The position numbers and the translations under genes were made by a program. The notes under the pieces are model-generated. The model had not been told where the DNA came from. It made no database searches and saw nothing but the letters and a program-made list of their open reading frames with translations. DNA of 64,000 nucleotides from Urbifossiella limnaea. GTDB taxonomy: Bacteria > Planctomycetota > Planctomycetia > Gemmatales > Gemmataceae. Positions 1,928-63,326 of this stretch are shown here, piece by piece. The stretch lies in contig NZ_CP036273.1 of assembly GCF_007747215.1 (NCBI RefSeq), forward strand, positions 1,906,322 to 1,970,321. Reading direction: 5' to 3'. The number at the start of each line of letters is the position of its first letter. The first letter of the stretch is position 1.

Positions 1928-3763
<1,836 letters not shown>

Positions 3764-59418: not shown

Positions 59419-60090
59419 TTAGACGTGAAGCGGTTCGAGGCACGCCACGTCATCGTTCCGCGGCGAGTTGATCCGGGTGGTGAGCGCCACCGCCGTCATC
59501 TCGTCCGCCGGGTACGGGTGTAGCAGCGACCGCACCTCGGCGGTGCCTGCGTCGGGGTCGAGCCACCGGCCGAAGTCGTCCGGCCGCAGGATCACCGGCA
59601 TCCGATCGTGCAACTGCTTCAGGAGCTCGTTCGGGTCCGTCGTCAGGATGCAGAAACTGAGAATCGGCTTCCCGCCGGCCGGCGGGTGCCACACGTCCCA
59701 CAGCCCGGCGAACGCGAACGGCTCGTTGGACTTCAGCCCGAACAGGTGCGGGTCTTTCCCGGGGTGGTCCTTCCGCCACTCCACGAACCCGTCGGCGACC
59801 ACGAGGCAGCGGCGGCTTTCGAGCAGGTCGGAGAACGTCGGCCGGGTGTCCGCCGTCTCGGCGCGGGCGTTCACCAGCGGCGCCCCCTTCAGGTGCCGCT
59901 CCTCGCGCACCAGCCCCCAGCGGATTTGGATGAGCCCGCGCGTCACCCCGTCCGGCTTCAGCCCGACCACCGCGGCCTGCTGCGTCGGCGCGATGTTGTA
60001 CCGCGGCGCCAGTTCCGGCGGGGGCTCGGCCAGCTCGAACAGCCGGGCGACTTCCTTGACGGTCTTCGTCCGGGTGAAGCGGCCGCACAT
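59419..60090 (-). CDS. SOS response-associated peptidase (SRAP/YedK/HMCES family)
   Basis: A 223-residue SRAP domain. C2 (MCGRFTR), N74 (VNARAET), E104 (GFVEWRK) and H161 (HDRMPVIL) are the complete active-site set. The family crosslinks its N-terminal Cys to abasic sites in single-stranded DNA, shielding them during replication. It is the last gene of the minus-strand SOS-like operon with a Y-family polymerase, 23 bp after the unknown middle gene. Transcription is probably LexA-controlled from 61815-61826. Confidence 0.93.
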   Translation of the reverse strand: MCGRFTRTKTVKEVARLFELAEPPPELAPRYNIAPTQQAAVVGLKPDGVTRGLIQIRWGLVREERHLKGAPLVNARAETADTRPTFSDLLESRRCLVVADGFVEWRKDHPGKDPHLFGLKSNEPFAFAGLWDVWHPPAGGKPILSFCILTTDPNELLKQLHDRMPVILRPDDFGRWLDPDAGTAEVRSLLHPYPADEMTAVALTTRINSPRNDDVACLEPLHV

Positions 60091-60113
60091 ACCGGCGTCA
60101 TCGGCCCGGCCGG

Positions 60114-60566
60114 TCAGACGACTTGATTCTCGAACACCGGCATCATCGGCTCCTGCCCCGACAGGTTCCGGTAGTAGTTGGTGGACGGGCGCACGAGGAC
60201 GTACACGACCGGCTCACCCCGCACGGCCGGCAGAACTACCCCGCGCACCCCCACGTCGATCAGCAGCCACCGCCCGTTGATGTGGCCGAGGTTCGCCGGC
60301 ACCAGCGCCAGCTCCGGCCGCGCCCCGGCGACCGCCTCCACGGCTTCCTCGGTCAGCCACCCGCCGAGCGGCAGGCGGGAGCGCCGGTCCTTGCACCCCC
60401 ACCGCAGCAGCCGCAGCGCCCCGTCCCACCGGACCGGTAGAACGGCCGGCTCTTGCCACCAGTGGAACTGCACCTCGTCGGCCCCGCCCCGCCGGTGGAC
60501 GCGCGCCGCCACGCCGTCGAGCAGCGCCGCGGGTAACTCGGCGGTGGTGAGCGCGAACCCGGTCAC
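60114..60566 (-). CDS. Unknown protein in the SOS-like operon
   Basis: A 150-residue protein between a translesion polymerase and SRAP, with 9 and 23 bp gaps. Notable segments are DEVQFHWWQEPAVLPVRWDG, LRLLRWGCKDRRSRLPLGGW and VVYVLVRPSTNYYRNLSGQEP. The RWG and WW segments recall the SRAP fold only loosely. No signal peptide or membrane helix. By position it is likely a DNA-damage tolerance partner. Confidence 0.72.
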   Translation of the reverse strand: MTGFALTTAELPAALLDGVAARVHRRGGADEVQFHWWQEPAVLPVRWDGALRLLRWGCKDRRSRLPLGGWLTEEAVEAVAGARPELALVPANLGHINGRWLLIDVGVRGVVLPAVRGEPVVYVLVRPSTNYYRNLSGQEPMMPVFENQVV

Positions 60567-60575
60567 GACGGCCCC

Positions 60576-61796
60576 TCAGAAGCAGAACTTCCCCCGGATG
60601 TCGCAGACGTCGAAGTCGTTGGCCGGGTCGAGATAGAAGTCGTTGGCGAACAGCGTGGCCCCCGACCGCAGCGTGAACCGCCCGAACCGCTCGTTCACCT
60701 CCCGCTTCACCCGGGCGACGGCGTCGGCCCGCGGGTCGGGCGCGTCGAACAAGCTTTGTTGCCACCCCGGCGGCCGGACCAGCCGCGACGCGATGAGGTG
60801 CATGTGCGTCGCCGACTCGCCCCGCCGCCACGCCTTCCGCAGCCCGACCTTCGCCGCCTCCAACAACTCGTCGAACCGGTCGGACGGGACGTTGAGGTTG
60901 ACCGACCCGCCGGCCCCCGGGGCGTCGTGGTAGCTCACGTACACGGTGAGCACCCGCGGCCGGACGACGTGGTAGTGCAGTTCCTCGATCAGCCGTTCCA
61001 CGTTGCGGACGAGCCACCCGTACAGGCTGAGGGCGTCGCGGACGCGGCCGGCGAGCGACCCGCCGCGGGAGATGTTCTTGTGCGGCGTGCGCTCCGGGCG
61101 GATCGGGTCGGCCGGTGCGCCGTTGCACTCCCGCCACAGGTCGTGCCCGCGGATCGTGAGGAGTTGGCGGATCAGGTGCCCGGGTGCCTTCCGGAAGTCG
61201 AGGCAGGTGCGGATGCCGTACTTTTCGAGCTTCGCCGCCCGGCGGGCGCCGATGCCGGCGATCTCGGTGACGGGGAGCCGGGCGAGCAGCGCGGTCTCGT
61301 GGTCGGGGTCGGTTACGGCGATTGCGCCGTTCGGCTTGGACGTGTCGGCGAAGAGCTTCGCCAGGGTGCGGCTACGGGCGTAGGCGACCGTCATCGGCAC
61401 GCCGACGCGGGCGCGGACGTGCGCCCGGACGGCCTCGGCGGTCTGCTGCCAGGTCCGGCCGGACTCGGGGACGGCTCGCCAGAAACACTCGTCGATCGAG
61501 TAGTACTCGACGGTCGGGGAGAACGTCCCGAGCTCGCGCTGGATCTTGCGGCTCAGTTCCTCGTACCAGCGGAAGTCGCGCTTGAGGTAGATGCCGTCGG
61601 GGCACTTCACGACGGCATCCCAGATCGGCTCGCCGACCTTCACGCCGCGTGACTTCATCTCGTAGGACCGGGCGATGACGCACGCCCCCTGGTTGCCGAG
61701 GACGCCAACCGGCATCCCGCGCAGCCACGGGCGGCGGACGACCTCGGCGCTGGCGTAGAAGGCGTCGGCGTCGCCGAACCCGACGAGGGCACCCAT
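60576..61796 (-). CDS. Y-family DNA polymerase (UmuC/DinB-like)
   Basis: A 406-residue translesion polymerase. D9 (GDADAFYASAE) and D102-E103 (YSIDECFW) are the catalytic metal ligands. The finger/palm segments VIARSYEMKSRGVKVGEPIW and TVAYARSRTLAKLFADTSKP match UmuC-type enzymes. GIGARRAAKLEKYGI is the thumb helix-hairpin-helix. The C-terminus (NDFYLDPANDFDVCDIRGKFCF) is intact. The usual UmuC subunit partner UmuD is not present. It is the first gene of the operon, 19 bp from a LexA-type box. Confidence 0.92.
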   Translation of the reverse strand: MGALVGFGDADAFYASAEVVRRPWLRGMPVGVLGNQGACVIARSYEMKSRGVKVGEPIWDAVVKCPDGIYLKRDFRWYEELSRKIQRELGTFSPTVEYYSIDECFWRAVPESGRTWQQTAEAVRAHVRARVGVPMTVAYARSRTLAKLFADTSKPNGAIAVTDPDHETALLARLPVTEIAGIGARRAAKLEKYGIRTCLDFRKAPGHLIRQLLTIRGHDLWRECNGAPADPIRPERTPHKNISRGGSLAGRVRDALSLYGWLVRNVERLIEELHYHVVRPRVLTVYVSYHDAPGAGGSVNLNVPSDRFDELLEAAKVGLRKAWRRGESATHMHLIASRLVRPPGWQQSLFDAPDPRADAVARVKREVNERFGRFTLRSGATLFANDFYLDPANDFDVCDIRGKFCF

Positions 61797-61814
61797 GCCT
61801 CAGGTGTAGATTGT

Positions 61815-61826
61815 GAACGGGTGTTC
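61815..61826 (-). promoter_or_regulatory. LexA-type operator (SOS box) GAAC-N4-GTTC
   Basis: GAACGGGTGTTC fits the Gram-positive/actinobacterial-type LexA palindrome (GAAC-N4-GTTC) exactly. It lies 19-30 bp upstream of the polymerase ATG at 61796, where it would overlap the promoter. Repression of the three-gene operon by LexA is inferred; lexA itself is not in the window. Confidence 0.7.
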
Positions 61827-61945
61827 AGTCAAGACGGGTCGGCCGAATTCGGCAAGAATCGGGTCCACGATTGGTGCTGGGTGATGAGCTCAGAGCGCCC
61901 CACGCGTCCGTCATAGATAGTGACGGTCGCGGGAAGCCCACAGCT

Positions 61946-62567: not shown

Positions 62568-63215
62568 TCAGCCCGTTGCTTTCCACAGCAGCGCTCCCCG
62601 CTCCTTCCCGCACTTCCGGCAGTGCCAGCCCGTCATCCGCTTCGGCCTGCGGTGCCTGTCGTGCTCCCGTCCACACCCTCCACAGGTCGCCCGCCACCGC
62701 CCCTTCGGCATCTCGACTTCCTCGCCGTAGCACCGCTCCGGCCGCGCCCCTACCTCGACGCACTTCGCCCTCCAGACCTCGTCGTGACCGTGACCGTGGC
62801 CGACGAGGGCGTGGGCAATCTCGTGCAGGATGGTGTCGCGGACCTCGGACTCGGGGTTGCGGAGGACGTAGTGCTTGGAGAGTTCGATGCGACCCGGCCG
62901 GCCACGAACAGGATAGCGGCAGACGCCCGCCCGGCGCTTGTTCGTGTTGAAGGCGAACTGCCAGTTCGTGAGCCCGTGCTGAGTCATCACCGCGGCGGCG
63001 AGTTCCTTCGCCCTGGTGAGCAGGGAGGCCGGAGGACGTTCGTCGGGGTGCTCGCGCAGCGAGACGCCGGCCTGTCGAAGGGCGGTCGCCCGGGCGAGCA
63101 CAGTCCACCGCGGTACGGGGCGCGGCGACCCGTCCGACACGCCGCTGACGACCGCGGCCAGCGACCCGGCGGCGTTCCACAGGATGGTGAAGTCGGAGTC
63201 GGTGACGGCGGTCAT
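62568..63215 (-). CDS. SprT-like zinc metalloprotein
   Basis: A 215-residue protein from MTAVTDSDFTILW. The HEIAH motif (131-135) with a following GHGHDEVWRAKCVEVG fits SprT-like domain proteases, and C178/C181 and C199/C202 form a zinc ribbon near the C-terminus, as in SprT/SPRTN relatives. SPRTN cleaves DNA-protein crosslinks, while bacterial SprT-like proteins are mostly uncharacterised. Its stop lies 141 bp from the half tRNA, so it may belong to the inserted element. It diverges from the PQQ-propeller gene. Confidence 0.82.
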   Translation of the reverse strand: MTAVTDSDFTILWNAAGSLAAVVSGVSDGSPRPVPRWTVLARATALRQAGVSLREHPDERPPASLLTRAKELAAAVMTQHGLTNWQFAFNTNKRRAGVCRYPVRGRPGRIELSKHYVLRNPESEVRDTILHEIAHALVGHGHGHDEVWRAKCVEVGARPERCYGEEVEMPKGRWRATCGGCGREHDRHRRPKRMTGWHCRKCGKERGALLWKATG

Positions 63216-63326
63216 ACGGCACGGGGCTCCGGGCACTCCTCCCAGATTCGGCCCGACCTGACGACCCGTCAAGTTCACTCCCGAGCGGTACACTGACCCG
63301 AACCGGCCCGCCTACTCGGGACTCCC

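Follow-up and report, generated by a model that had tools for sequence, protein, structure and literature searches.

A probable LexA-controlled operon uniting a translesion polymerase, a compact SRAP-fold protein and a complete SRAP protein in Urbifossiella limnaea

A row of three minus-strand genes on the 7.8 Mb chromosome of Urbifossiella limnaea raises the question of what is encoded by the open reading frame between a translesion polymerase gene and a SRAP gene, and whether the three genes stand together under LexA control. The row lies in the window, i.e. the whole 64,000-nucleotide stretch that was analysed (contig NZ_CP036273.1, positions 1,906,322 to 1,970,321; family Gemmataceae, which also includes the Gemmata and Limnoglobus loci). 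Gene content, fold, pairing of the genes, conservation of the operator box and active-site residues were all computed in this analysis (Table 1). The first-pass annotation had described a polymerase gene followed at 9 bp by a 150-aa ORF and, after another 23 bp, by a complete SRAP gene; ORF coordinates and Pfam matches agreed with this description, and the short gaps support operon-like spacing. No tRNA gene was found near the operon.

Table 1. Coordinates of the operon features in the window
Feature	Position	Strand	Details
Y-family translesion polymerase, UmuC/DinB-type	60576..61796	-	406 aa; ATG at 61796; Pfam IMS, IMS_C, IMS_HHH
Compact SRAP-fold protein (middle gene)	60114..60566	-	150 aa; GTG start; Cys2 absent; AlphaFold, VIA-align, family alignment
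Complete SRAP (YedK/HMCES family)	59419..60090	-	223 aa; C2, N74, E104, H161; Pfam SRAP
LexA-type operator GAAC-ACCC-GTTC, palindrome	61815..61826	-	exact match; extended TGAAC-N4-GTTCA 61814-61827
-35-like TTGACT, directly before operator	61827..61832	-	sequence; TTGAC-box arrangement recurs in relatives
Putative sliding-clamp-binding-type motif QQSLF, residues 346-350	60747..60761	-	Q-x-x-L-F-like in most homologues
RecA-NT-like segment AVARVKREVNERFGRF, residues 359-374	60675..60722	-	K364, N368, G372, F374 conserved
Polymerase C-terminal tail, about residues 383-406, ..NDFDVCDIRGKFCF	60579..60650	-	very conserved

The third gene encodes a complete SRAP protein, as had been claimed. It matched Pfam SRAP with an E-value of 1.3e-61 (208 bits, cut-off 27.1), and its matches in the PDB were BT_1218, HMCES and YedK. 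The Met-Cys start and the Asn, Glu and His residues of the SRAP active site are all present, and these four positions are invariant columns in a 15-member alignment headed by the window protein.

The product of the first gene matched the Pfam domains IMS (5.7e-33) and IMS_C (7.5e-12) as well as a DNA polymerase family of the PHROGs (7.7e-68). Besides these Y-family domains it has the catalytic acids D9, D11, D102 and E103, which are conserved in 64 distinct homologues; judged from these residues, the polymerase is catalytically complete. Its C-terminal part contains a motif predicted to bind the sliding clamp and a segment that looks like the RecA-NT motif described in PMC6511836. The tail (consensus among homologues ..NDYDICDVRGKxCF) is very conserved: D390, C398, D399, G402, K403, C405 and F406 are each conserved in at least 93% of the 64 homologues, and the corresponding tail of UmuC is the binding site of UmuD' (PMC6511836). 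By analogy, the tail may bind the product of the neighbouring gene.

The middle ORF had been called unknown. This was correct insofar as no match was found in Pfam (including the SRAP family PF02586), NCBIfam or PHROGs at E-values up to 1. Similarly, a PDB profile search gave no link to SRAP, and hhalign aligned only an RMPV motif. The picture changed when predicted structures were compared. With the AlphaFold model of the window copy (pLDDT 93.6), VIA-align found only SRAP structures (Z 8.8-10.6 over 128-142 residues), the next unrelated chain scoring 3.4. An Aquisphaera-type member of the family (pLDDT 94) likewise had SRAP structures as its sole clear matches (Z 8.9-10.7; next unrelated chain 2.3), Foldseek being concordant. 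Thus, the sequence searches failed, and it is from the fold comparison of these two models that the middle protein is recognised as having the SRAP fold in a shortened form of about 150 residues. When 28 members were aligned jointly with 15 SRAPs, in an alignment whose middle part is uncertain, the family was seen to retain Trp-Gly, a Gly and MP in the SRAP order, and no conserved counterpart of the SRAP Asn, Glu and His was found. Most members begin with Met-Cys-x-Gly-Ile-Ala. The window copy starts with GTG-ACC, its GTG being aligned with the Cys codon of its relatives, and therefore lacks Cys2. Because of this absence and of the missing Asn, Glu and His counterparts, the middle protein was not classed as a SRAP. 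No structure in a viral library matched it convincingly, and no relative was found on viral contigs at the search sensitivity used.

The family of small SRAP-fold proteins was found in 94 of the 297 genomes of the class, and 69 loci, mostly from Planctomycetota, were named; beyond this phylum, some loci carry the labels Candidatus Peribacteria and Peregrinibacteria. A polymerase of the same kind lies directly beside the small gene in nearly all 69 loci, either co-directionally or divergently, the latter in some Isosphaeraceae (Singulisphaera, Paludisphaera; L107, L110, L111, L114, L119, L120). Among the loci studied, about ten have a full SRAP gene next to the small gene, and most neighbourhoods seen lack one. 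The order polymerase, small protein, SRAP recurs in L002, L003/L148 and L066; in L071, L126, L129, L150, L151 and L154 a SRAP gene lies close by in a different orientation. The first-pass annotation took the gene order to unite lesion bypass with abasic-site protection; the constant partner of the polymerase is the small protein, and the full SRAP is an occasional one.

The perfect GAAC-N4-GTTC palindrome reported upstream of the polymerase gene is exact: it reads GAACGGGTGTTC at 61815-61826, and GAACACCCGTTC on the coding strand. Its distance from the ATG is 18 bp and not 19 bp as first given. The operator would fall in the promoter spacer, after the -35-like TTGACT. A strict sigma-70 promoter scan yielded no site at the operon, and the -10 is for this reason probably weak or unusual. 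In orthologous promoters the order of TTGAC, box and a weak to good -10 recurs; placed between TTGAC and a putative -10, the box is in the classic position of a repressor site. In L151 such a box occupies the short gap between divergent SRAP and polymerase genes.

GAAC-N4-GTTC is the LexA box of Gram-positive bacteria (PMC3323433). For planctomycetes the literature consulted gives no motif, beyond the statement that their LexA does not recognise the box of E. coli (PMC3108266). The lexA gene is present in 87 of 95 Gemmataceae genomes, and its promoters have a strong common motif, typically TGTGTACGAnCGTnTAATATACT. A first model of this motif drifted onto the -10 region and was replaced by one whose sites were fixed at a distance of 17 nt ahead of the -10. 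The half-sites and spacing of the polymerase operator are those of the Gram-positive box and of the related cyanobacterial box. Unlike these, the lexA promoters of the family mostly read GTAC-N4-GT or GAAC-N4-GT, their second half being degenerate, directly before TATACT. GAAC replaces GTAC in several Gemmata and same-genus genomes, and the lexA promoter of a same-genus genome (L161, TTGTGAACGGGTGTGGATTATACT) has GTGAACGGGTGT in common with the operator. The polymerase operator is a more symmetrical version of the lexA box of the family. The annotation had named a box near lexA and recA as the test of its claim, and this test was passed only in part, because the lexA promoter of the window genome itself, whose lexA gene lies at G000:C1:2643525-2644139, contains a variant box, CTGTACAAGTGTGGATTAGACT, without the exact palindrome, and inspection of recA promoters of the family by eye revealed no LexA-type box. 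In this family recA may be controlled without LexA. The upstream regions of recA in L180, L182, L183, L186, L187, L189 and L192 have a common CTGACCTTCA-like element. A second box, about GTGGACnGGTGTAGC, was seen downstream of the -10 in lexA promoters of this genus and Gemmata (19/47; L158-L176).

The palindrome could have arisen by chance, leaving the operon outside LexA control. The genome holds 144 copies of the bare pattern and the window three (1.03 expected from shuffles), and this view is also favoured by the presence of only a variant box at lexA and the lack of a box at recA. The longer form TGWAC-N4-GTWCA occurs six times in the 7.8 Mb genome. Of these six perfect extended boxes the polymerase operator is the sole one that precedes a recognisable repair gene, and the other five, none of which does so, count against the LexA reading. 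A 14-column matrix derived from the lexA promoters of 46 other Gemmataceae genomes, with the lexA of the window genome excluded, placed 61813-61826 first among 127,974 window positions, and this site still ranked first when the whole genus was left out of the matrix. With column-permuted matrices the best site fell into the polymerase promoter in 2 of 400 trials. The box also recurs in relatives. A search for G(A/T)AC-N4-GT(A/T)C in the 100 bp before each of 62 distinct orthologous polymerase genes gave an exact match in nine (0.23 expected; maximum of 300 simulations, 3) and a match with at most one mismatch in 30 (5.4 expected; maximum in simulations, 13); about half of the orthologous promoters have no good box by this pattern. 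The operator is therefore above chance, since it matches the lexA promoters of relatives and recurs at orthologous operons, and a coincidental palindrome is very improbable. As to the proposal that a planctomycete uses the Gram-positive type of box, matrix rank and enrichment support it, with the reservation that the exact palindrome is not the usual box of the family.

The role of the small protein also admits different explanations. It could be, in most species, an abasic-site cross-linker that acts through Cys2 and is recruited by the polymerase, the window copy being an exception whose task was taken over by the full SRAP. In 25 of the 28 members aligned, and in the majority of a wider set, a Cys codon (TGC/TGT) follows the start codon, which fits this idea, as does the superposition of residue 2 of the Aquisphaera-type model on residue 2 of SRAP structures. 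However, Glu105 and His160 of YedK drive the ring opening of the abasic site and Schiff-base formation (PMC9436759), and the family has no conserved equivalents; moreover, several lineages have lost Cys2, including some without an adjoining full SRAP. On these grounds a general cross-linking role is rather unlikely. Loss of Cys2 had no clear association with an adjoining SRAP (roughly 4/10 versus 13/58, hand count). A partnership of the small protein with the full SRAP instead of the polymerase, in which it might for instance serve as a regulatory pseudo-enzyme, would agree with their common fold and with their adjacency in about ten loci, but it is hard to reconcile with a polymerase beside the small gene in nearly all loci and the rarity of SRAP in these neighbourhoods, and can be given little credence. 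It is also suggested, tentatively, that the SRAP-fold subunit of the polymerase captures or senses abasic sites through Cys2 without the classical Glu/His pair in the many species that have this residue, and that in the window lineage it became a Cys-less pseudo-enzyme, the chemistry being left to the full SRAP encoded in the same LexA operon.

The locus is probably a LexA-repressed translesion operon coding for a polymerase, its SRAP-fold subunit and a separate abasic-site cross-linker. LexA bound to the palindrome next to the -35 would block the polymerase promoter; after DNA damage, RecA filaments would trigger self-cleavage of LexA, and the three proteins would be made together from what we infer to be a single transcript. 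The UmuC-like polymerase would contribute the clamp- and RecA-contacting motifs and the conserved tail, and the small subunit would form a complex with it, taking the place of UmuD' in Pol V. The full SRAP would cross-link abasic sites in single-stranded DNA and shield them from breakage. Since the window copy lacks the Cys2 nucleophile, the small subunit most likely acts by binding; in this genome the predicted division of labour is that it binds the polymerase, and perhaps DNA, and that the downstream SRAP does the chemistry.

A link between UmuC-like polymerase and SRAP-related proteins, with supportive complex models, was described recently (PMC12926913, Nucleic Acids Res. 2026), and the small SRAP-related protein was proposed to be a polymerase-binding regulatory subunit. 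As here, a UmuC-type polymerase with a RecA-NT motif is accompanied by a gene-linked small SRAP-related protein. The main text of that paper gives no taxa, operator or cysteine pattern for this link, and because taxa are missing there, the present family belongs probably, not certainly, to that group. The present analysis adds the operator, the motif of the lexA promoters in the family, the range of taxa and the Met-Cys pattern with its repeated losses, as well as a case in which one operon encodes both a Cys-less SRAP-fold subunit and a full SRAP. Operons that join SRAP genes to DinB, UmuC(D) and ImuB or ImuAB-DnaE2 have been known since 2013 (PMC3765255); these too combine SRAP and a translesion polymerase, but here a second, compact SRAP-fold protein without the SRAP catalytic residues stands between both genes as the constant partner. 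A Y-family polymerase with a conserved C-terminal tail is likewise joined to a small partner in the damage-inducible-type operons of E. coli Pol V (UmuC-UmuD') and B. subtilis YqjW-YqjX/YolD (PMC6511836). In contrast to these systems, the partner here has the SRAP fold and not that of UmuD' or YolD, and hence is not the UmuD homologue expected of a Pol V-type system. Compared with YedK and HMCES, whose four active-site residues all recur in the third gene, the middle protein has the same fold, is about 70 residues shorter and lacks Asn, Glu and His, the window copy lacking Cys2 as well.

Should the operon function in the proposed way, a single operator would govern both lesion bypass and abasic-site shielding, which bears on the cellular balance between mutagenic bypass and protection. 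The LexA regulon of this phylum receives hardly any description in the literature consulted, and the locus supplies components of an SOS mutagenesis system that can be put to the test. A family without database matches becomes a SRAP-fold neighbour of a translesion polymerase. This raises the questions of whether Cys2 reacts with abasic DNA and why some lineages drop it.

The same genome contains the small SRAP-fold gene a second time (L177, about 2960-3425; G000:C1:3033966-3034418), with no polymerase in the 3 kb examined to each side. A plasmid of Methylophaga pinxianii (NZ_CP095734.1; L212, 4983-5396) encodes a distant relative (33% identity over 72%), which adjoins a type I restriction gene and ssb and has no polymerase among its annotated neighbours. 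In the window, a SprT-like metalloprotease with a zinc ribbon (62568-63293, minus strand) is encoded on the same strand as the operon and upstream of it. SPRTN, a eukaryotic relative of this protease, removes HMCES cross-links. The SprT-like protein was considered as a member of the system and rejected, as its gene does not adjoin the pair of polymerase and small gene in the relatives examined. The N-terminal part of the SprT-like protein, about 65 residues long, is repeated at other places in the genome and also close to further copies of the gene for the small SRAP-fold protein (L177, 391-582; L129, 5494-5658).
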